NCBI RefSeq assembly: GCF_900302465.1
Contig: NZ_OMOR01000001.1
Span: forward strand, 186,001-250,000
From: Ascidiaceihabitans donghaensis
GTDB lineage: Bacteria > Pseudomonadota > Alphaproteobacteria > Rhodobacterales > Rhodobacteraceae
DNA: 64,000 bases
Direction: 5' to 3'
Numbering within the stretch: the first letter of the stretch is position 1; each line of letters opens with the position of its first letter. A program made the position numbers and the translations under genes. Positions 2,867 to 35,352 of the stretch are shown piece after piece. A model generated the notes under the pieces. The model made no database searches. It was not told the DNA's origin and saw only the letters and a program-made list of their open reading frames with translations.

Positions 2867-3469
2867 ATGACGGTTCTTAGGCTGCGCGGCTTTGACATCC
2901 GTAAACAGTACCTTAACACACAGGCGCAAAATGAGGTCTTGCAGGCCGTGCGGGCTGTTGCCGAAACGGCACCTGTTTTCTCGCCCATGACCCCTTATGG
3001 AAAGCCTATGACTGTGCGCATGACGTCGGCAGGCAAATACGGCTGGTTTTCGGATGCGTCCGGGTATCGCTACGTTCGAACACATCCTTCGGGTACGGCT
3101 TGGCCGGACATTCCGTCTCCGATTTTGGACATTTGGCGCGCAGTATCGGGTGTGGACCGATTGCCCGACTGTTGTTTGGTCAATTTCTACGGCGAAGATG
3201 CGCGGATGGGTTTGCACCAGGACCGGGACGAAGCCGATTTTAGCTGGCCGGTTGTGTCTGTGTCGTTGGGCGATGACGGATTGTTCCGGATTGGCAACAC
3301 AACACGGGGTGGCAAGACGGAATCGGTATGGTTGCAATCGGGGGACGTGGTGGTCATGGGCGGCGCTGCGCGATTGACCTATCACGGCGTGGACCGGATC
3401 AGATTTGGCACATCCACGTTACTTCCCAAAGGGGGGCGCATCAATCTGACACTGCGTGTGGTTGATTGA
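2867..3469 (+). CDS. alkB: AlkB-type 2-oxoglutarate/Fe(II) DNA dealkylation dioxygenase
   Basis: Oxidative demethylase that repairs 1-methyladenine and 3-methylcytosine lesions. The 200-residue product, close to E. coli AlkB in size, shows the family signature: NFYGEDARMGLHQD with iron ligands H117 and D119, a third ligand H173 in TYHGVDR, and the 2-oxoglutarate-binding RINLTLR (R191, R197) at the C-terminus. I chose the ATG at 2867 because GAGG (2858-2861) precedes it at good spacing. An in-frame TTG at 2849 would add six residues. Divergent from dnaK across its heat-shock promoter. Confidence 0.95.
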   Translation: MTVLRLRGFDIRKQYLNTQAQNEVLQAVRAVAETAPVFSPMTPYGKPMTVRMTSAGKYGWFSDASGYRYVRTHPSGTAWPDIPSPILDIWRAVSGVDRLPDCCLVNFYGEDARMGLHQDRDEADFSWPVVSVSLGDDGLFRIGNTTRGGKTESVWLQSGDVVVMGGAARLTYHGVDRIRFGTSTLLPKGGRINLTLRVVD

Positions 3470-3642
3470 GAGACCGTTGTCCTTTATTCTTTTTCCAGAA
3501 CATGGAGATTTTATGTCCCGGTAAAGTGGGAAAGCCTTTGCGCTTTCCGATGCACACCTTCAAAGCGATTTGCGTACCTCGATTGGTGCGGCCTTTGTTG
3601 TGTGCGTTCGACCATTCCAGACACCACTGAAAGATCAAACCG

Positions 3643-4710
3643 ATGACACGGGACTATTCCCAATTCATGCCTCAAGCCAAACAAACAGAGGTAACACTTT
3701 CCACACTGGACACCCTTGGGTGGCAGCCGTTCTTTTCGCAGCAATTGTCCATTGACGATATGACCAACACCCCGCCTGTGCGCGTAACCGAGGTGCACCG
3801 CACAGTGATGCGTGTGATCGGGCAGGGGATCGACAAGACGATTCCGTCCGTGGCCGACGCAACTGTGGGGGATTGGCTGCTTTTAAGTGCGGATGGCACG
3901 TATTCCGACACTGTTTTAAATCGCAAAAGCCTGATGAAACGGCGTGCGCCGGGATCAGATCGTGCTGTGCAATACATTGCGGCCAACATCGATACCGCCT
4001 TTATCGTGACGTCTTGCAATCAAGACTTCAATGTCGCGCGATTGGAACGCTACATCGCGGTTGCGTTCGAGGCCGAGATTGATCCCGTGATTGTTCTGAC
4101 AAAGCGTGATCTGGTTGCGGACACCACCGATTTTGAAGCCCAAGCACGGTCCATTTCCGATCTGGTACCTGTCATTGCAATTGATGCCCGATCCGATGAA
4201 CCAAAAGCAAAGCTTGCGGAGTGGTGTAAACCGCGGCGGACCGTTGCCTTTTTGGGATCATCCGGGGTAGGAAAGTCGACCTTGGCGAATACGATGGCGG
4301 ATCGCGATATCATTGCCACGCAAGGGATCCGTGCGGCTGATGATAAAGGACGCCACACAACAACGTCCCGCCAATTGCATCTGGTGCCGGGGGGTTTTGC
4401 GGTTCTTGATACGCCGGGCATGCGCGAATTGCAGATGACGGATGTTACGGCAGGGATCGAAGATCTGTTTTCTGATCTGCAAGAGCTGTCCACGCAGTGC
4501 AAGTTTCGCGATTGTGCACATGAAACGGAACCGGGATGCGCCGTGCGTGCGGCCATGGACGCAGGCGACATCGATGAGGCGCGGATGCGACGGTGGAAAA
4601 AGCTTGTGGCTGAAGACGCCTACAACTCGGCCACACTGATCCAGCGCCGCGCCCGCGATAAAGCCTTCGGCAAGCTGGTGCGTGGGGTCGTGAAAGAGAA
4701 AAAGCGCTAA
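3643..4710 (+). CDS. rsgA: Ribosome small-subunit-dependent GTPase RsgA
   Basis: GTPase that checks late 30S ribosome assembly. The 355-residue product shows the circularly permuted GTPase order that defines the family: G4 TKRD at 153-156 comes before G1 GSSGVGKS at 205-212 and G3 DTPG at 256-259. An OB fold precedes these (about 45-100). The C-terminal zinc site is CKFRDCAHETEPGC (286-299). The ATG at 3643 has only a weak upstream AAAGA, and an in-frame ATG 24 bases later is an alternative. It appears to be a single-gene unit. Confidence 0.95.
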   Translation: MTRDYSQFMPQAKQTEVTLSTLDTLGWQPFFSQQLSIDDMTNTPPVRVTEVHRTVMRVIGQGIDKTIPSVADATVGDWLLLSADGTYSDTVLNRKSLMKRRAPGSDRAVQYIAANIDTAFIVTSCNQDFNVARLERYIAVAFEAEIDPVIVLTKRDLVADTTDFEAQARSISDLVPVIAIDARSDEPKAKLAEWCKPRRTVAFLGSSGVGKSTLANTMADRDIIATQGIRAADDKGRHTTTSRQLHLVPGGFAVLDTPGMRELQMTDVTAGIEDLFSDLQELSTQCKFRDCAHETEPGCAVRAAMDAGDIDEARMRRWKKLVAEDAYNSATLIQRRARDKAFGKLVRGVVKEKKR

Positions 4711-4720
4711 GCCGTTTTAT

Positions 4721-4763
4721 AAAAAACCCCGTATCGCCCGATTTGGTGGCGGTACGGTGGTTC
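4721..4763 (-). terminator. Terminator of the exported SH3-like gene
   Basis: Inverted repeat with arms AACC-CCGTATCGCC and GGCGGTACGG-T-GGTT (one wobble pair, one bulge, loop about 8 bases). On the minus strand it is followed at once by TTTTTT (complement of 4721-4726), a classic intrinsic terminator for the gene ending at 4778. It may also slow transcription arriving from rsgA. Confidence 0.7.
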
Positions 4764-4777
4764 ATGGTCTTTGCCGC

Positions 4778-5401
4778 TTAGGGTCTTAATGAACAACAGC
4801 CTGAAACAGTTTCATCCCCTTCAGGGCTTGCGAAACCTGTATAGCCTTTCAGCAATATTTCGATTTTCAACCCAAACGCGTTTTCTGTATTGGGGTAGGT
4901 ACATGCAGCAGGCGTCAGCTTGGCGTCGAAGTCGACTTGCAGTCCCGGACGCGCCGAGGTTTCCGACATTGTGATCTTGCCCTCATACCCAAGTTTGTCG
5001 TCGCTTTTGGTAAATTGTACATCACCACGGGTTTCGGGTGTGTTCCATGCGCTTGACTTGTCGTCGCTTAGATCAAGGTTCCAGCTTGGCTCTGCGCCGA
5101 AGCAGGCCAGCGTTAGGGGCATGTCGTCTTCTACTTTAATCATACTGCTCATGGTGACCCAGCCTGTCGTGTCGCGCACATTGACCTGACCCCAAATGCC
5201 ATCTGCACTGACGGAGACAACTTCGATGGATTTCGCATCAAACACATACCCTGCCAAGACATCCGAAGTGTCGTCTTGTGCTGCAAAGATTGGCAGCAAA
5301 TCACCATCCGGTATCCCGATCACAGAATACCGCGCGGGAAAATCATAGGCACTTGCGACGGTTGCCCAAAAGCCAAGCAGCAAAACAGATATAAATTTCA
5401 T
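4778..5401 (-). CDS. Exported SH3-like domain protein of unknown function
   Basis: A 207-residue protein with a signal peptide (MKFISVLLLGF, probable cleavage after VASA at residue 18). It has a bacterial SH3-like region (about 25-90) with a typical GIWGQVNVRDTTGWV stretch. The C-terminal half contains CFGAEPSWNLDL, reminiscent of the GxEPxW motif in uncharacterised periplasmic proteins. The ATG at 5401 is preferred over upstream in-frame codons because GGGGATC precedes it and it overlaps the stop of the upstream permease gene as ATGA, implying translational coupling. It probably acts in the periplasm; its function and any link to capsule export are unknown. Confidence 0.75.
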   Translation of the reverse strand: MKFISVLLLGFWATVASAYDFPARYSVIGIPDGDLLPIFAAQDDTSDVLAGYVFDAKSIEVVSVSADGIWGQVNVRDTTGWVTMSSMIKVEDDMPLTLACFGAEPSWNLDLSDDKSSAWNTPETRGDVQFTKSDDKLGYEGKITMSETSARPGLQVDFDAKLTPAACTYPNTENAFGLKIEILLKGYTGFASPEGDETVSGCCSLRP

Positions 5402-28849: not shown

Positions 28850-28865
28850 TGGTGCCCAGAAGAGG
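28850..28865. repeat. Distal attachment site of the integrative element
   Basis: TGGTGCCCAGAAGAGG, identical to 16 bases at 35267-35282 that encode the 3' end of tRNA-Leu(CAG) including CCA. Flanking bases are also similar (GAAAT versus AAAAC before the repeat). The pair bounds 6,417 bases holding a tyrosine integrase gene, so this is the far junction left by site-specific insertion. Confidence 0.9.
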
Positions 28866-28985
28866 CATTGAAGTCCTATATTTAGGGGTTTCACGGTACA
28901 CCACTGAATCAGTCAATCGCATGTTTTATATAGTTTTCTTGTCCTAGGGTGTTCCATGGGGCATCACACCATACTATATGTTGAG

Positions 28986-29004
28986 GGTGGACCAGAGGGT
29001 GGAC
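28986..29004 (+). repeat. Paired GGTGGAC boxes at the integrase end
   Basis: GGTGGAC occurs at 28986-28992 and 28998-29004, a 12-base period, immediately before the integrase start codon. A matching pair with the same spacing occurs at the opposite end (35192-35210). They are candidate arm-type binding sites for the integrase or its accessory protein, and their position would allow autoregulation. Confidence 0.5.
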
Positions 29005-29007
29005 TGT

Positions 29008-30207
29008 ATGACTAGGGCATTGAACAAGCTATCGGCGCAAGGGGTGAAGTCTTTGGAGGCTGGCAAACACTCGGATGGCGGCGGACTTTGGATATTCAAG
29101 AATGATGGCGGCGGCGGCAAGTGGGTGTTGCGGGTGCATGTGCATGGGCGGCGGCGCGAAATGGGGCTGGGCGCTTATCCCCGCGTATCGCTTAGAGAGG
29201 CGCGGATGGAGGCGGAAAAGTGGCGCAGGGTATCCCAACAGGGCAAAGACCCGATCAAGCAACGTCAAGCCGCCCAGCGCGATGCAGAGCGCAACATGCA
29301 CCTGTTGTCCGATATCGCCCATGATGCCTTTGAAAGCCGGAAAGCTGAATTGAAAGGCGATGGTAAGGCGGGGCGGTGGTTTTCCCCTTTGGAACTGCAC
29401 ATCTTGCCAAAGCTGGGCAAGCTGCCAGTGTCCGAGATTGATCAACGCGACATCCGCGATACGCTGGCCCCAATCTGGCACGACAAAGCAGAGACTGCAC
29501 GCAAGGCGATGAATCGTCTGGGCATATGTATCAAACACGCGGCGGCGCTGGGCCTTGATGTGGATATCCAAGCGACAGAGAAGGCCAAGGCGCTTCTAGG
29601 CAAGCAACGTCACAAAGCAGTTCACGTCCCTGCGCTGAACTGGCGCGATGTTCCTGCCTTCTATCAATCGATGAATGAAGGGACCGTGACCGAACTGGCG
29701 TTGCGCTTGCTTATCGTTACGGCGGTGCGGTCTGCCCCGTTGCGATTTCTGCATTTGGATCAAATCGAAGGTGACGTCTGGACCATCCCTGCGGAGGCCA
29801 TGAAAGGCCGTAAGGACGCGACCAGTGATTTCAGGGTGCCATTGTCGTCGGAGGCTTTGGCGGTGATCGAACAAGCCAAACCCTTTGCGCGTGACGGGTT
29901 CCTGTTCGCAGGGGTGCGGCGCGGAGTCATTTCGGATGCCACGATGTCGAAATACATGGATCGGCGCGACATGGCGGAACGGCCCCATGGGTTCCGGTCC
30001 TCTTTCCGCGATTGGGTGGCAGAGGCCACAAACACGCCGCGTGACGTTGCAGAAACCTGTCTGGGTCATGTGTCAGGCGGGGCGGTGGAGTTAGCTTATC
30101 GTCGCACGGACTATCTGGAGCAACGGCGGGCCTTGATGGAATGGTGGGCACGCTGCTTAACACTTCAGGACATTGCCGCTGTTGCAATGTTCGGAGCGTC
30201 AAAGTGA
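29008..30207 (+). CDS. P4-type tyrosine integrase
   Basis: Site-specific recombinase of 399 residues. The N-terminal arm-binding DUF4102-like domain includes HSDGGGLWIF and MGLGAYPRVSLREAR. The catalytic domain shows R241 in TAVRSAPLR, H327-x2-R330 in RPHGFRSSFRDW, H354 in CLGHVSGG and the probable nucleophile Y364 in LAYRRTDY, then RRALMEWW typical of this family. I start at the ATG at 29008, preceded by AGAGGG; an in-frame ATG at 28978 adds ten residues over the GGTGGAC boxes. It lies beside the distal junction rather than beside the tRNA. Confidence 0.95.
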   Translation: MTRALNKLSAQGVKSLEAGKHSDGGGLWIFKNDGGGGKWVLRVHVHGRRREMGLGAYPRVSLREARMEAEKWRRVSQQGKDPIKQRQAAQRDAERNMHLLSDIAHDAFESRKAELKGDGKAGRWFSPLELHILPKLGKLPVSEIDQRDIRDTLAPIWHDKAETARKAMNRLGICIKHAAALGLDVDIQATEKAKALLGKQRHKAVHVPALNWRDVPAFYQSMNEGTVTELALRLLIVTAVRSAPLRFLHLDQIEGDVWTIPAEAMKGRKDATSDFRVPLSSEALAVIEQAKPFARDGFLFAGVRRGVISDATMSKYMDRRDMAERPHGFRSSFRDWVAEATNTPRDVAETCLGHVSGGAVELAYRRTDYLEQRRALMEWWARCLTLQDIAAVAMFGASK

Positions 30208-30884
30208 TTTTCCCTGTCGGATATACCCCGCTTTCTGAAATTGCAGATCAGTGCATAGCTGACAACAGGAAGATGCATGAAGTACAAGCACCGTTTGATA
30301 GTAGTGTTCCCAGCTCAAGCCACAGAGAATGGGTAAATTGGATAGACCACGCAAGCTATTCTGAGGGAGTCCAAACGGCTTGGGGGTTTTGTGATCAAGA
30401 TGAGGCTCTACCTTTTACGATGTTGACGAATGGCACTGTTGTGAGAATTTCTCACCATTTGCTGAGGAATTGGGGCGTTGATCCCATCGGAACCTTTGTT
30501 GATGTCACAGTTGGTACGCTTGGTTCTGGGTCTGGGCACTACGATTGGAAATCCTTTGCGGAGGCGGATGAAGCGGTGGACACAGATGTCTTAGAGAGAT
30601 TTGTTGGTCCATTTATGAACCTGCCCGTCATCTACACAGACAAAGTCGCTCACAATTTTTTCAACTTACTCGGAAAGTGGGAAGGTTCCCCTAGCGCACC
30701 AAACCATCGACAAACCGCGCAAGCTATTGTTGATGCATTTGACGACGACAATAGGATGACTAAACGGGAAGCTAGAAAGCGATTTGCTACGGACATGAAG
30801 CAAGCGGAATTTCTGGCTACATGGGAAATGGCTGTCAAAATTAGGCCTGAGCTTTCAAAACCGGGGCCACGAAAAGCAATCTAA
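30204..30884 (+). CDS. Hypothetical protein of the integrative element
   Basis: A 226-residue protein starting at a GTG at 30204 that overlaps the integrase stop (GTGA), with GGAG upstream, so it is translationally coupled to the integrase. It is acidic in the first two thirds and has a basic C-terminal segment, MTKREARKRFATDMKQAEF then WEMAVKIRPELSKPGPRK, that could bind nucleic acid. I recognise no domain. Coupling to the integrase suggests a role in element maintenance, but this is only positional. Base composition is more AT-rich than the integrase. Confidence 0.7.
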   Translation: MIFPVGYTPLSEIADQCIADNRKMHEVQAPFDSSVPSSSHREWVNWIDHASYSEGVQTAWGFCDQDEALPFTMLTNGTVVRISHHLLRNWGVDPIGTFVDVTVGTLGSGSGHYDWKSFAEADEAVDTDVLERFVGPFMNLPVIYTDKVAHNFFNLLGKWEGSPSAPNHRQTAQAIVDAFDDDNRMTKREARKRFATDMKQAEFLATWEMAVKIRPELSKPGPRKAI

Positions 30885-30913
30885 TCCATTTAATAATTCG
30901 TCGCGTAATTTAG

Positions 30914-30927
30914 TTCGTCCAAACGAA
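30914..30927. promoter_or_regulatory. TTCGT-ACGAA inverted repeat upstream of the alpA-like gene
   Basis: TTCGTccaaACGAA, a 14-base dyad 45 bases before the AlpA-like gene, in the only AT-rich gap of this part of the element. A further half-like TTCGT stands at 30898. Plausible operator of the element's own regulator; binding is inferred. Confidence 0.3.
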
Positions 30928-30945
30928 TAGGTGGTGAATGAAGGT

Positions 30946-30963
30946 TCCATGCAACAACATGGA
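30946..30963 (+). promoter_or_regulatory. Hairpin overlapping the alpA-like ribosome binding site
   Basis: TCCATG (30946-30951) and CATGGA (30958-30963) form a 6-bp stem with a 6-base loop. The downstream arm includes the first bases of the GGAG ribosome site (30961-30964) for the start codon at 30972, so folding would limit translation of the regulator. Confidence 0.4.
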
Positions 30964-30971
30964 GCACCACA

Positions 30972-31145
30972 ATGCGCTATCTTTCTTTCCGCGACCTACA
31001 AGCCAAACTTGGAGGCCGTGGACGCACTACGATCTACCGTGACGTTGATCTGGGCCGCTTGCCCAAACCCGTAAAAATTGGTTCCCGTCTGTACTGGAAC
31101 GAAGCGGACATCGACGCCACTCTCCAACAACGTTCAAACGCATAA
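30972..31145 (+). CDS. AlpA-like helix-turn-helix regulator/excisionase
   Basis: A 57-residue protein resembling the AlpA/MerR-like short DNA-binding proteins that activate or direct excision of P4-type elements. LSFRDLQAKLGGRGRTTIYRDVDLGRLPKPVKIG is the typical helix-turn-helix plus wing, ending SRLYWNEADIDATL. The ATG at 30972 has GGAG seven bases upstream, inside a small hairpin. It is the natural partner of the integrase in controlling excision; this is inferred from family. Confidence 0.88.
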   Translation: MRYLSFRDLQAKLGGRGRTTIYRDVDLGRLPKPVKIGSRLYWNEADIDATLQQRSNA

Positions 31146-31258
31146 CTTCACCCCCCGCCATGCAGTGCGCATGGGCGGCGGGTGGAGCGTTTTCCGTGGT
31201 AGGAATGTCTGCACTCTACGCCCAGCGCCTTGTGGCATCAACCATAAGGACGACCCTA

Positions 31259-31546
31259 ATGATTGACGATCAATTCTACTCGGGCAAAACCCAAGTTTTC
31301 TGGACCTGCAAAGCGCTTTTGGATGGGCGCGCAATTTCCCATCAAACCGAAATCCGCGAAGTACGTGGCTGGCGTTTGGGTGCAATCATTCACCGCCTGA
31401 AATCGGAATATGCTTGGCCGATCCAGACCAGCTATCGCAAGCCCGACAATGTGGCGTTCTATAGTCTCAATGCGGACGTGGACCGCAAGGCACTTCGCTA
31501 TCCACCATCTGCCAAAGCGCTGGGCGCGGTGGAGGGCGCGCAATGA
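31259..31546 (+). CDS. Small winged-helix-like hypothetical protein
   Basis: A 95-residue protein starting at the ATG at 31259, with AAGGA about nine bases upstream. The middle, TCKALLDGRAISHQTEIREVRGWRLGAIIHRLKSEYAWPIQT, looks like a small winged helix that positions a recognition helix (AIIHRLKSEY), as found in small proteins of phages and islands. Its stop overlaps the next start as ATGA. Function unknown; DNA binding is inferred. Confidence 0.75.
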   Translation: MIDDQFYSGKTQVFWTCKALLDGRAISHQTEIREVRGWRLGAIIHRLKSEYAWPIQTSYRKPDNVAFYSLNADVDRKALRYPPSAKALGAVEGAQ

Positions 31547-31671
31547 ACCGCAAGCGCACCACAACCCCGCCCAGCGCCGTGCGCCGTATCATGCGCAAAC
31601 ACGGGCTGTCAGAACCCGCCGCATGGTCCTATGCGTTCCTAGCCTATGGGGAGGCCGGGCTGCATGGCTAG
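31543..31671 (+). CDS. Very small hypothetical protein
   Basis: A 42-residue basic protein (MNRKRTTTPPSAVRRIMRKHGLS...) whose ATG overlaps the previous stop by four bases (ATGA) and whose end overlaps the start of the next gene by eight bases. Tight coupling on both sides and a good coding pattern support it being translated. The segment RRIMRKHGLSEPAAWSYAFLAYGE is helical in character. No family recognised. Confidence 0.6.
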   Translation: MNRKRTTTPPSAVRRIMRKHGLSEPAAWSYAFLAYGEAGLHG

Positions 31672-32122
31672 TGGCGTGAACAAGAAAGGGCGAAGCAAAG
31701 CCAAGTTTGTCCAGCTTTACTATTGGTTCCTGAACTCGGAGGCGTGGGCAACCATGCCGCCGGGACCACGGGCGCTCTATGTTGAACTAAAGCGCCAGTA
31801 CAACAGCCACAACAACGGCGCGATATTTTTGAGCCATAGGGACGCTGCAAAGGCACTGGCGGTGCATCGCAATACGGTTGGCCCTTGGTTTCGTATCCTT
31901 GAAGAACGCGGGTTTATCAAAATGACGCGCGGGTCATTCCTTGGCCCCTCTGGCGTCGGTAGCGCTGCATCTTGGGCTTTGACAGAACTTGCGACAATGG
32001 ACGGTAAACGCGCGACCATGGATTTCAAAAAATACAAAAGCCCCGCACAAAAACCGTGCAGCCCCGTCACAAAATCTGTGCATTGCAACGCAGAAAACGC
32101 CAAGCGTGCACAAAATATGTGA
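31664..32122 (+). CDS. Winged-helix hypothetical protein of integrative elements
   Basis: A 152-residue protein starting at the ATG at 31664, with GGAGG 10 bases upstream. LYYWFLNSEAWATMPPGPRALYVELKRQYNSHNNGAIFLSHRDAAKAL and RNTVGPWFRILEERGFIKM make a clear winged helix of the type used by replication-related or regulatory proteins; relatives are common in rhodobacterial islands next to integrases. The C-terminal 45 residues are rich in Lys, Ala and Cys and look disordered. It may act in element replication or regulation; this is unproven. Confidence 0.75.
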   Translation: MASGVNKKGRSKAKFVQLYYWFLNSEAWATMPPGPRALYVELKRQYNSHNNGAIFLSHRDAAKALAVHRNTVGPWFRILEERGFIKMTRGSFLGPSGVGSAASWALTELATMDGKRATMDFKKYKSPAQKPCSPVTKSVHCNAENAKRAQNM

Positions 32123-32394
32123 CAGATCAGGGGGATAACGCGTGGTCAGGCGTCACAAAAAACAGGACATATATACATCTAGCCATATGGTGTATCTGAG
32201 CCGATAGGAAAGAAGGCTAGAGAGGCCGCTAGGGCGCAGCTAGAGGCCCGTATAGCGTGGATCCCTCTCTCAGCACGCGGAGAACGCCCTGAAACCCATA
32301 TATGGCCCCTGAGGGGTTAAAAACGTGGGTTGTCAAAAGATCAGATAGATAACCCCCCTCTGCGTTGCGATTAAATCAAGTTGGAGGGCTTTCT
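32123..32394. other. Noncoding region with nested inverted repeats
   Basis: These 272 bases hold no convincing gene. Structured elements are visible: a perfect palindrome CCATATATGG (32296-32305), CCCC-TGA-GGGG (32306-32316) directly after it, both enclosed by AACCC (32293-32297) and GGGTT (32327-32331). A further ATACA/TGTAT pair flanks an AT-rich stretch near 32175-32197. This could be the element's regulatory or replication-origin region; only the repeats are observed. Confidence 0.4.
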
Positions 32395-32661
32395 ATGCCA
32401 GCACCTGACCTGGACGGGGTTTACATCTCAGAGCGTGGCGAGGGCCGGATTACAGTCACCCATGAGGGCTATTTGTGGAGCAACAGCAGCCAAAACCGTT
32501 TCAAGCGTGCAGTGACAATTCTCAGGCGGCTACAGCGCAATACATGGCGCTGTGATTGGTGTTTTGAGGATCTGCAAACATGGCGCAGAGCTGATGCCAG
32601 GTATTGCTGTGAAGGATGCCGCAAGCGTGCAGCGCGTCAGAGGCGGTTTTGGAGAGGCTAA
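32395..32661 (+). CDS. Small zinc-finger hypothetical protein
   Basis: An 88-residue protein starting at the ATG at 32395, with GGAGGG seven bases upstream. The C-terminal half carries four or five cysteines in zinc-finger spacing (CDWCFEDLQTWRRADARYCC then EGC) followed by a basic tail RKRAARQRRFWRG, suggesting nucleic-acid binding. The N-terminal half reads as a short beta-rich segment. No named family recognised. It sits directly before the decayed GGIGSGR fragment. Confidence 0.7.
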   Translation: MPAPDLDGVYISERGEGRITVTHEGYLWSNSSQNRFKRAVTILRRLQRNTWRCDWCFEDLQTWRRADARYCCEGCRKRAARQRRFWRG

Positions 32662-32698
32662 CTTTCCAAATGATTTCGGCAAAACCCTGAGGTGAGAC

Positions 32699-32940
32699 AT
32701 GGGCGGTATAGGTAGCGGGCGACATTGGCAGTTCGGGGCAAACACGACAGAAGGCTAGGCAGAGGCTTGAGAGACGTGGCGCTGGGCATGACGCGAAGGG
32801 CTACGGGGGGCGGTTCAAAGTCTAGACCAATACGACAAGGGACCGGAGCGGGAAGGCAAATATGCGTATACACAGTTCAGGGATTTTGGGTTTCACCAGC
32901 CGACTACCCTAAACTTGCCAAACGATTTCGTAAAAAATGA
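32699..32940 (+). pseudogene. Decayed copy of the GG(Y/I)GSGR zinc-ribbon gene
   Basis: At 32699 an ATG with GAGGTG upstream begins MGGIGSGRHWQFGANTTEG and then hits TAG at 32756-32758. The first 19 codons match the start of the family represented by the intact gene at 32953, but the rest is lost or shifted. The 30 bases before this start (CCAAATGATTTCG...GAGGTG) resemble those before the intact copy (CCAAACGATTTCG...GAGGTG), so the region looks like a tandem duplication with decay. A small frame ending at 32940 (tail YPKLAKRFRKK) cannot be supported as a gene. Confidence 0.5.
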
Positions 32941-32952
32941 GAGGTGCAGAAT

Positions 32953-33600
32953 ATGGGCGGATATGGATCAGGCAGACCACGCCAAAAGAACAAGGTAGAG
33001 AGCTGTAAGCGGTTGGACGTTAATCGTTTGCACCGCGAAGGCACTTTGAGACCCGGTTGGAGCGGTAGCTGGATCTGGTCACGCGACGGGGAAGAATTTG
33101 GCCGGATAAACTATCGCGCGCAAGAGGGGCGACTTGTCCTAAACTACCGTGTCAGGGAATATGGCGGCGACTGGGAGCACGTGGAGCAACCTGTGCCCTT
33201 GACCTACGCTTCCTGTCATTATGGAAGCCAGCGCCCCTATTTCCGTTGCCCCGGCGTTGTGAATGGGCAGGCTTGCAATCGACGGGTTGCAAAGCTGTAC
33301 GCTGGCGGCAAATACTTTCTATGCCGCCACTGCTACAGGCTAGCTTACACCAGCCAATCGGAACCACGCTATGACCGCATGTTGCGCCGCGCAAACAAGC
33401 TGCGGATGGAACTGGGCGGCGAACCCGGTACTGCGCATTGGATTGCACCCAAACCCAAAGGAATGTGGCAACGGACGTACCAGCGCAAACGGTTTGAGAT
33501 TGAGTGGTGCGAGGGCCAAGCGGACCACCTATTCGTAGAACAATTTAAGCATCTCCTCAGCGTAGAGGGACGGGAGGCGGTTTTCGGGAACCTCTCATGA
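32953..33600 (+). CDS. GGYGSGR-type zinc-ribbon hypothetical protein
   Basis: A 215-residue protein of a family widespread in proteobacterial islands and phages, starting MGGYGSGRPRQKNKVESCKRLDV. The middle holds a zinc ribbon: CPGVVNGQACNRRV then FLCRHCYRLAY, four to five cysteines that could bind one zinc. The C-terminus is basic with KRFEIEWCEGQADHLF. AGAGG lies eight bases before the ATG at 32953; a GTG at 32944 is an alternative. Its role is unknown; a truncated copy lies just upstream. Confidence 0.75.
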   Translation: MGGYGSGRPRQKNKVESCKRLDVNRLHREGTLRPGWSGSWIWSRDGEEFGRINYRAQEGRLVLNYRVREYGGDWEHVEQPVPLTYASCHYGSQRPYFRCPGVVNGQACNRRVAKLYAGGKYFLCRHCYRLAYTSQSEPRYDRMLRRANKLRMELGGEPGTAHWIAPKPKGMWQRTYQRKRFEIEWCEGQADHLFVEQFKHLLSVEGREAVFGNLS

Positions 33601-33647
33601 CCGTTGCATTGGCAGAGGGGCGTAGCCGAGAAAATCTTCCATTTCGG

Positions 33648-33679
33648 TTGACAGTGCGCACGCGATGTTTAGTTATATC
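33648..33679 (+). promoter_or_regulatory. Possible promoter of the toxin-antitoxin-chaperone module
   Basis: A perfect -35 hexamer TTGACA (33648-33653) is followed after 16-20 bases by AT-rich TAGTTATATC, offering weak -10 choices. The position overlaps the first codons assigned to the toxin gene, so if active the real toxin start must be further downstream. Confidence 0.35.
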
Positions 33680-34072
33680 TTAACTTGTAGTGGGCAGAGT
33701 GTGTTGAAAGCAGGATTTTTAAAGATTGCAGAAGGCGACTATTGCGAAGTCTGGCTCTCAAAAAAGGCATTCAAGATTGTCAAATCCGCCCCTCCAAAAG
33801 ATCGCGGTCGAACAAATGACATACTAGGGCATCTGAGTGATAACGGACCGAATGATTTGAATGAACAGAAATTCAAATCCGAGGCACGCTTTCCAAATGC
33901 TGAAGGAACAGAAGTCATGGTTTATGCCACAAAATCATACCAACTTCGCGTTTATGGATGCTGGGAAAGCGGGCCACGGCTTCGTTTTGTTGCGTCTGAA
34001 GCCGCGATTAAAAAAGACAATAAAGCAGACAGAGCTCAGCTCAAAAGAGCGGCCAAAAGTGTGGGAGAATAG
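33665..34072 (+). CDS. HigB/RelE-superfamily toxin of a TAC module
   Basis: Predicted ribosome-dependent mRNA interferase, up to 135 residues. The RelE-like core runs CEVWLSKKAFKIVK (strand and helix), ILGHLSDNGPNDLNEQKFK, VMVYATKSYQLRVYGCW and RLRFVASEAAIKKDNKADRAQLKRA, the last two matching the end of HigB-type toxins. The first 12 codons look unlike a RelE start and overlie a TTGACA box, so translation may begin at GTG 33701 or TTG 33704. The antitoxin gene starts two bases after the stop. Toxin activity is inferred from fold and operon. Confidence 0.75.
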   Translation: MFSYILTCSGQSVLKAGFLKIAEGDYCEVWLSKKAFKIVKSAPPKDRGRTNDILGHLSDNGPNDLNEQKFKSEARFPNAEGTEVMVYATKSYQLRVYGCWESGPRLRFVASEAAIKKDNKADRAQLKRAAKSVGE

Positions 34073-34074
34073 AC

Positions 34075-34473
34075 ATGGGTATCAATAAGGAACTGATGGG
34101 TCCCGTAGGTCCAGAAGACAAAGAAGCGTTCGCTATCGAATCGTTGGTTTTTTCGGTTCAGGTTTCGTTGCAGAAAATCATGAACAAAAGGGGCGTTAAC
34201 AATAAAGATTTGGCTGAACGGCTTGGTATGACACCAGCAAGAGTTTCTCAGATTTTTTCGTCTAATGGACCTAATCTGACGGTGAAAACCATTGCTAAGA
34301 TTGTCCACGCGCTTGGTGACGAATTTGAGTTCGTTCCCAAGCAGGACATTCGTAGTGCCCGGGTTAGTGAGAGGGTTGCTAAGTTTAAGCCAATGATTGT
34401 GAGTGGAAATCCGTCTATTTGGAAAGAGCAGCCAGCAAATGACGCGGCTCCTAGGAAAAAGATGGCCGCATGA
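34075..34473 (+). CDS. HigA-like XRE-family antitoxin with C-terminal extension
   Basis: A 132-residue DNA-binding antitoxin. Residues about 30-85 form a Cro/C1 helix-turn-helix (NNKDLAERLGMTPARVSQIF, then LTVKTIAKIVHALGDEFEF). Residues 90-132 form a polar tail with a single tryptophan (NPSIWKEQP), in the place where TAC antitoxins carry the chaperone-addiction region bound by the SecB-like partner. GGGAG is upstream of the ATG. It lies between toxin and chaperone, and its stop overlaps the chaperone start (ATGA). The addiction role of the tail is inferred. Confidence 0.82.
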   Translation: MGINKELMGPVGPEDKEAFAIESLVFSVQVSLQKIMNKRGVNNKDLAERLGMTPARVSQIFSSNGPNLTVKTIAKIVHALGDEFEFVPKQDIRSARVSERVAKFKPMIVSGNPSIWKEQPANDAAPRKKMAA

Positions 34474-34964
34474 TGGCTCAAAGCAATAAAAACCTTGGAA
34501 CATATGAAGCTAGCGCTGAGCTTCCAGAAGTCGCTTTTGACTACGACGGGTATGCCGAAGTTTCAAAGGCCGCTCGGCTTTTCGAAATCAAGCTCATTGA
34601 CAGCAAGTATTTGATCAAACCAGAAATCTCCTTTGCCATCGAAGATCTTTCAAAGATGACTCATGGCTTCTCTGGTGATAGCGATCACTTTACCTTTGAC
34701 GCTAAACAGGGACTTGCAATGGGCCACTATCGATGGACCGCAGAGATTAAGTATGGGCGAAAGAAAGCTCTGAGGCTCGTCGCGAACTACCTTATCGGAT
34801 ACTCTGATTTGGCAAATTTTGATGAAGCCAATGTAAGGCATTATTTTGACAAGGTAGGAAGGTTTGCTACGTACCCCTACTTTAGGGCGCTTTTCAGTCA
34901 TCATACTTCAGAGTCTGGCCTTGCGCTGCCGCCGCTGCCAACATTGAGCGAGCGAGTGAATTGA
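34470..34964 (+). CDS. SecB-like chaperone of a TAC module
   Basis: A 164-residue protein (163 if the second ATG at 34473 is used). The C-terminal half follows the SecB pattern: long beta strands (GHYRWTAEIKYG, ALRLVANYLIGYSDL), then the helix with YPYFRALFSHHTSESG (135-150) and the closing LPPLPTL (153-159), corresponding to FPYxR and GFPPLxL in SecB. The N-terminal part (RLFEIKLIDSKYLIKPEISF) fits the first strands. True SecB is encoded near grpE or grxC in proteobacteria, not beside a toxin. Coupling to the HigA-like gene makes a TAC chaperone the best explanation. Confidence 0.72.
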   Translation: MMAQSNKNLGTYEASAELPEVAFDYDGYAEVSKAARLFEIKLIDSKYLIKPEISFAIEDLSKMTHGFSGDSDHFTFDAKQGLAMGHYRWTAEIKYGRKKALRLVANYLIGYSDLANFDEANVRHYFDKVGRFATYPYFRALFSHHTSESGLALPPLPTLSERVN

Positions 34965-35266
34965 AGCACTGATTGACTGCCTCAGGTGCGTAACAGGCTT
35001 AGTTGCTGCCATCTTGCCTAGTGATTTTGTTGGTAGCCTTTAATTTGCATGTAATGCAGCCGAAATTTCTAGCCGTTTTCCTTGAGGGTAGACACAAAGC
35101 TGTAGAATAGTAGGAAAGGGGCCGCTGATATCGGTCGCTTTCCTGCGCATTCATTTGGACGCTAGGAAATTGGTACAAGAAAAGCTGCAAAGGTGGATCA
35201 GAAGGTGGACCGTCGGACAGCTTATTCTATTAAGCTATTGAAAAATATTCATTATTTTTAGAAAAC
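34965..35266. other. AT-rich noncoding end of the element
   Basis: About 300 bases between the chaperone gene and the tRNA-side junction with no credible gene. The only structure I see is the pair of GGTGGA boxes at 35192-35210. The last 50 bases are strongly AT-rich (GAAAAATATTCATTATTTTT), typical of an integration-host-factor or integrase bending site next to an att core; that role is inferred. Confidence 0.4.
35192..35210 (+). repeat. Paired GGTGGA(C/T) boxes at the tRNA end
   Basis: GGTGGAT (35192-35198) and GGTGGAC (35204-35210), the same 12-base period, orientation and similar spacer (CAGAA versus CAGAG) as the pair at 28986-29004. Its position 57 bases inside the attachment core fits an arm-type integrase site. 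Confidence 0.5.
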
Positions 35267-35282
35267 TGGTGCCCAGAAGAGG
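35267..35282. repeat. tRNA-proximal attachment site
   Basis: TGGTGCCCAGAAGAGG, the 3' end of the tRNA-Leu gene read on the plus strand (CCA, discriminator, acceptor and part of the T arm). It is identical to 28850-28865 and marks the junction that regenerates an intact tRNA on insertion. Confidence 0.9.
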
Positions 35283-35352
35283 ACTCGAACCTCCACGTCC
35301 ATACAGACACTAGCACCTGAAGCTAGCGCGTCTACCATTCCGCCACCTGGGC
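35267..35352 (-). tRNA. tRNA-Leu, anticodon CAG
   Basis: An 86-base gene with encoded CCA. The acceptor stem pairs GCCCAGG with the 3' strand TCTGGGC (one G-U at the base), followed by discriminator A. The D arm has GCGGAATGGTAGACGC, and the anticodon arm is CTAGC-TTCAGGT-GCTAG with CAG at the anticodon. The long variable arm (TGTCTGTATGGACG) confirms a class II leucine tRNA, and the T loop has GTTCGAGTC. Its 3' end serves as the integration site for the element on its downstream side. Confidence 0.96.

Follow-up and report, generated by a model that had tools for sequence, protein, structure and literature searches.

The 64,000-nucleotide window considered here, that is, the whole stretch of DNA analysed (positions 186,001 to 250,000 of contig NZ_OMOR01000001.1 of Ascidiaceihabitans donghaensis), contains three intact genes which lie together on one strand and encode, in order, a toxin (135 amino acids), an antitoxin (132) and a SecB-like protein (164; see Table). 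Two nucleotides separate toxin from antitoxin, and the antitoxin and SecB-like genes overlap in an ATGA; the three form an operon-like cluster (33665-34964) of the HigBA type of toxin-antitoxin-chaperone (TAC) module. Open reading frames, gap and overlap all agree with the first-pass annotation, which had described three overlapping or near-adjacent genes in this order. Its start at 33648 does not hold: the TTG at that position, part of a TTGACA, is not in the reading frame of the toxin, whose first start codon is the ATG at 33665. The true toxin start is perhaps GTG 33701 or TTG 33704, which we suggest because five closer homologues (at the loci numbered L002, L005, L007, L008 and L080) have 122-128 amino acids and because residues 1-13 of the toxin model are of low confidence (pLDDT <50); the homologues at L003 and L006 have 144 and 164. 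The G+C content of the triad is 46-47%, against 49-58% in the surrounding 1-kb windows, and a sigma-70 scan found no promoter.

Table. Features of the TAC-type module and of the integrative element around it (positions within the window).
Feature	Position	Strand	Basis
Integrative element, ~6.4 kb, at tRNA-Leu(CAG), with the TAC-type module at its right end	28850..35282	.	exact 16-bp direct repeats, integrase beside left repeat
attL-like repeat TGGTGCCCAGAAGAGG	28850..28865	.	exact 16-bp direct repeat
Tyrosine integrase (Arm-DNA-bind_3, Phage_int_M, Phage_integrase)	28978..30207	+	domain matches
Replication-initiation / DnaD-like helicase-loader-like protein, weak	31646..32122	+	phrog_270 E 4.9e-6, phrog_186 E 6.1e-5
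Element gene, 218 amino acids	32944..33600	+	without Pfam or NCBIfam match
HigB/Gp49-type RelE-fold toxin	33665..34072	+	profile match to Gp49; model best match Rv1955 HigB1
XRE/HigA-like antitoxin	34075..34473	+	Pfam HTH_3 residues 32-81, E 5.1e-8
Antitoxin C-terminal tail, residues ~90-132, putative chaperone-addiction region (ChAD), with W116 and terminal MAA	34342..34470	+	Trp context, AA ends in relatives
SecB-like TAC chaperone (HigC-like)	34470..34964	+	overlaps antitoxin stop by 4 nt
attR-like repeat inside tRNA-Leu 3′ end	35267..35282	.	exact 16-bp direct repeat
tRNA-Leu(CAG), integration target	35267..35352	-	tRNA gene

Structure models, all of single chains, identify the two outer products. 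The predicted model of the third protein has a SecB fold, and among solved structures Rv1957, the chaperone of the Mycobacterium tuberculosis TAC, ranks top; structure prediction had been proposed in advance as the check on the SecB-like assignment, which it upholds. The predicted toxin model has a RelE/HigB (BECR) toxin fold, as the first-pass annotation had claimed, with M. tuberculosis Rv1955 (HigB1) as its top solved match, tied with a Streptococcus pneumoniae entry. The gene order is that of the M. tuberculosis HigB1-HigA1-SecB-like system, as the first-pass annotation had proposed, and it is two TAC proteins of that species that head these comparisons.

The antitoxin had been described as an XRE/HigA protein with a single Trp in its tail; this is confirmed by the helix-turn-helix match, which leaves a C-terminal extension of the 132-residue protein as a putative ChAD, and by W116, its sole Trp, within that extension. 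In the closer relatives the tail Trp stands in the context S-x-W-x-E...A-N, and 10 of 13 antitoxins end in Ala-Ala (the others in IA, VA and, at L078, NG), against 10 of 300 long open reading frames drawn mechanically from the window and the fetched loci. In M. tuberculosis the HigA1 tail confers dependence on the SecB-like chaperone (PMC5105189), and its Trp108 occupies a chaperone pocket (PMC6377645). CmdA, the antitoxin of CmdTAC, ends in LAA like other TAC antitoxins, LAA being a ClpXP signal (PMC11618068). Matches of our antitoxin in PHROGs and PADLOC were set aside as generic helix-turn-helix matches.

Relatives of the SecB-like protein are sparse, being found in 3 of 295 genomes of the family, 1 of 12 of the genus, 5 of 390 of the order, 3 of 386 of the class and 3 of 397 of the phylum (the genome of the window is among those counted each time); in other searches they turned up at three places in genome contigs, in three plasmid records and in three viral contigs. 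The full triad, which the first-pass annotation had proposed to seek in other Rhodobacterales, recurs with its gene order unchanged at 13 of the 15 separate loci (the window, L002, L003, L005, L006, L007, L008, L013, L016, L017, L077, L078 and L080), the first gene of L013 being counted as a toxin by position and weak similarity. The closest named carriers are Loktanella (sp. D2R18, L002) and Celeribacter (C. ethanolicus NH195, L003), which accords with the first-pass annotation's placing of the host as a probable Roseobacter relative; L013 is a Sphingobium baderi plasmid, and L007 and L008 are viral contigs. As to the remaining two loci, L009 begins at the SecB-like gene, with the upstream pair cut off, and L014 (with which L015 was merged, having the same chaperone protein) has a different upstream pair; L004, identical to L003, and L079, on the contig of L002, were not treated as separate loci. 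Pairwise identities of the three proteins co-vary (rho 0.74-0.84, reached by 0 to 1 of 1000 label permutations). A toxin profile run on the 386 class genomes found the same three SecB-positive genomes and one weak match, in G548. Translated searches gave no match in phage records, nor in plasmids with the window toxin or with that of L085 (the G548 locus, described below); three further viral scans yielded no new locus, one of them returning the L009 contig again.

The surroundings of these loci are often mobile: mobile genes lie at or near the module at 10 of 15, the window included. Phage structural genes lie among or near four: a terminase large subunit gene precedes the triad at L007, with portal and head protein genes after it; a terminase gene precedes it at L008 and a major head protein gene at L016; and at L080 a tail fibre gene lies about 2 kb away. 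A conjugative plasmid carries L013, and L014/L015 are plasmid-borne as well. Integrase genes adjoin the module at L003 and L009 and a resolvase-like gene lies 1.7 kb downstream at L002, as recognised by eye only. No mobile gene was recognised near the module at L005, L006, L017, L077 and L078.

In the window itself, the view of the module as cargo of an integrative element is borne out by anatomy: the 3′ end of tRNA-Leu(CAG) forms one copy of a 16-bp direct repeat without mismatch, a tyrosine integrase gene sits just inside the other copy, and between them lie small genes of mostly no assigned function, with the triad at the far end. No empty integration site was found in the genus, where right-flank searches matched 11 of 12 genomes; the gene left of the island had no match left of the tRNA at eight loci (L022-L029), where at most 1500 bases of DNA were available and where, at L026 and L028, the DNA ends at the tRNA.

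We propose, with a probability of about 0.85, that the module is a chaperone-dependent HigBA-type TAC and forms the cargo of an element integrated at tRNA-Leu; its three parts, a toxin of HigB fold, a helix-turn-helix antitoxin whose tail is of the addiction type and a chaperone of SecB fold, are supported by the models and matches above. By homology, the toxin would be a Gp49/HigB-type mRNase, expected to cleave mRNA in the ribosomal A site, and the antitoxin would neutralise it and probably repress the operon. The antitoxin tail may serve as both chaperone-addiction and ClpXP-degron region, which a tetramer of the SecB-fold protein, such as its homologues suggest, would bind and shield. If a different client captured the chaperone (the likeliest being a structural protein that a phage makes in abundance), the antitoxin would be left to be degraded, and the freed toxin would stop translation and abort phage growth; the same switch would stabilise the element. 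To a phage trigger, taken by itself, we give roughly an even chance. That some TACs defend against phage, as the first-pass annotation had noted, is published for CmdTAC (PMC11618068) and HigBAC (PMC11980606); the link that it drew from this module to phage is circumstantial, coming from those relatives and from the four loci at phage structural genes, and for the module itself it is suggested rather than seen.

Several results weigh against this proposal. Pfam SecB (PF02556) matched none of the 12 SecB-like members scanned (L077, L078 and L080 were left out), the window protein included, and the PADLOC profile for CmdC (PD-T4-9_C) matched only one of the 12, weakly (E 0.031). Searches of named families with the window SecB-like protein alone gave no match, and its sole match in a PDB sequence search was Rv1957 at E 0.63. 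When residues were shuffled as a control for the SecB comparison, 1 of 200 shuffles scored as high as the best single score of the real sequences, and aligning the SecB-like set to canonical SecB by hhalign gave a null result with realignment (trimmed, E 0.0096, probability 4%); we relied instead on permutation controls and the fold. The window toxin has no Pfam Gp49 (PF05973) match, one of ten toxin members matching at E 0.0023 and that of L080 at E 0.076, short of the curated cut-off; alone, it found nothing in named-family or PDB sequence searches, and matches of the toxin profile to PLS9-PPR and a dioxygenase in the PDB were rejected as repeat or short matches. Otherwise Pfam scans gave just scattered single-member matches in both sets. 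One of 100 permutations in the toxin-Gp49 hhalign control gave E 2.6e-24, so the hhalign E-value alone was not trusted, and the Gp49/HigB assignment is carried by hmmsearch controls and the fold. PADLOC, run on nine island open reading frames, matched only the antitoxin helix-turn-helix. Finally, the L013 toxin (3080-3490, + strand) lacks the conserved basic residues of the family (K90, R95, K116, K117) and may be inactive or different; together with the NG end of the L078 antitoxin this suggests that distant members may differ.

The co-occurrence of the three genes bears on whether the chaperone belongs to the switch. An ordinary two-component HigBA, with a SecB-fold export chaperone as a passenger dispensable for neutralisation, would suit a host genome that also codes for canonical SecB, since a spare SecB fold could then have any client; but the third gene is fixed at 13 loci, at -8 to +10 nucleotides from the antitoxin and with co-varying divergence, the antitoxin still has a tail with a Trp and in most cases ends in AA, and three of the four toxin carriers among the class genomes have the SecB-like gene, so that we regard this as very improbable. 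A true TAC might instead act as a stress switch (for temperature or translocon overload), as proposed for that of M. tuberculosis, rather than in phage defence. Its top solved relatives are indeed the M. tuberculosis TAC proteins, described as stress-responsive (PMC4257090); its patchy occurrence in the family and the 10 loci on or near mobile genes suit cargo better than housekeeping, and we think this role unlikely.

Harder to set aside is a true TAC that serves only the maintenance of its element, by addiction and without phage sensing, which we consider a real possibility, if short of an even chance. Toxin-antitoxin modules in general stabilise the elements that carry them, and this one recurs on an integrase island, on phage elements and on plasmids. 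However, the published CmdTAC and HigBAC are phage-triggered defences (PMC11618068, PMC11980606), and plain addiction is less obvious at the five loci at which no mobile gene was recognised. More doubtful is the idea of a mobile TAC lineage specialised in competition among phages and other mobile elements: since structural proteins trigger known TACs, phage-borne copies would need to respond to the coat proteins of other phages while ignoring those of their own, and chaperone specificity would then act as a filter between self and non-self.

Compared with the M. tuberculosis TAC, the module shares the order of genes and a Trp-bearing antitoxin tail, but identity over aligned residues is just 17% for the chaperone and 14% for the toxin, HigA1 has two tail Trp residues (W108 and W137) rather than one, and the window module lies on a tRNA-Leu island in a host with canonical SecB. 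From canonical SecB it differs in the lack of a Pfam match in the 12 members and in its linkage to a toxin-antitoxin pair, which fits the suggestion of a distinct, diverged lineage; 33 published TAC chaperones likewise lie outside PF02556 (PMC4257090). HigBAC of Escherichia coli, reportedly first described by Mets et al. (2024), resembles it by description: its HigC is SecB-like, a Gp49-family HigB of E. coli belongs to a TAC module that acts in abortive infection, and the HigBAC trigger is a phage structural protein, the lambda major tail protein, which disrupts HigA-HigC (PMC11980606). In CmdTAC (PD-T4-9) a SecB-like protein, CmdC, similarly protects the antitoxin, until the T4 capsid captures it and the toxin is freed (PMC11618068). 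CmdT, in contrast, is an ADP-ribosyltransferase, the window toxin being RelE-fold, and the module does not qualify as a CmdTAC.

Horizontally transferred regions were already reported in 2014 to carry TAC chaperones, some of them outside PF02556 (PMC4257090); the module therefore adds a diverged member to a kind that was known before, in a mobile branch found here in Alphaproteobacteria, and it adds a branch to the three-part switch which CmdTAC and HigBAC have placed in phage defence. Among the papers listed in our literature searches, which most subscription papers lay outside, none dealt with a TAC carried by an integrative element of Alphaproteobacteria; the one alphaproteobacterial paper among them that was checked for this, on Caulobacter higBA (PMC13384398), has the terms in its reference list only. 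As neither window chaperone nor window toxin has a Pfam match, annotation will miss both, and further members can be sought with the set of 13 and with the motif of the tail. Those members that lie inside clusters of phage head genes allow a direct test of how a TAC carried by a phage escapes being triggered by that phage's own coat proteins.

Some of the related loci have features of their own. At L085 (G548:C2:594000-602000; 3650-5119, + strand) a weak toxin relative (E 2.2e-4) is followed by an XRE antitoxin whose tail contains Trp and by a third gene which overlaps the antitoxin stop and encodes a DUF6941 protein (PF22091, E 3e-10), not SecB; at this single locus the toxin-antitoxin pair may have taken another protein as its third component, and a literature search on DUF6941 found no paper. 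Beside the plasmid TAC of L013 (1-2910, - strand) lie genes for a Mov34 protein with E1-E2-type PADLOC matches and for a metallohydrolase with LmuA/MBL-type matches, a candidate defence neighbourhood. The two Celeribacter ethanolicus NH195 contigs of L003 and L004 share 12,426 identical bases, in which both integrase and TAC lie, by duplication or as an assembly artefact. On the Sphingobium plasmids of L014 (1896-4432) and L015, the SecB-like relative follows a 417-residue protein without Pfam family and a 245-residue MarR-like protein which ends in DEDLAA, possibly a TAC with unrelated toxin and antitoxin.
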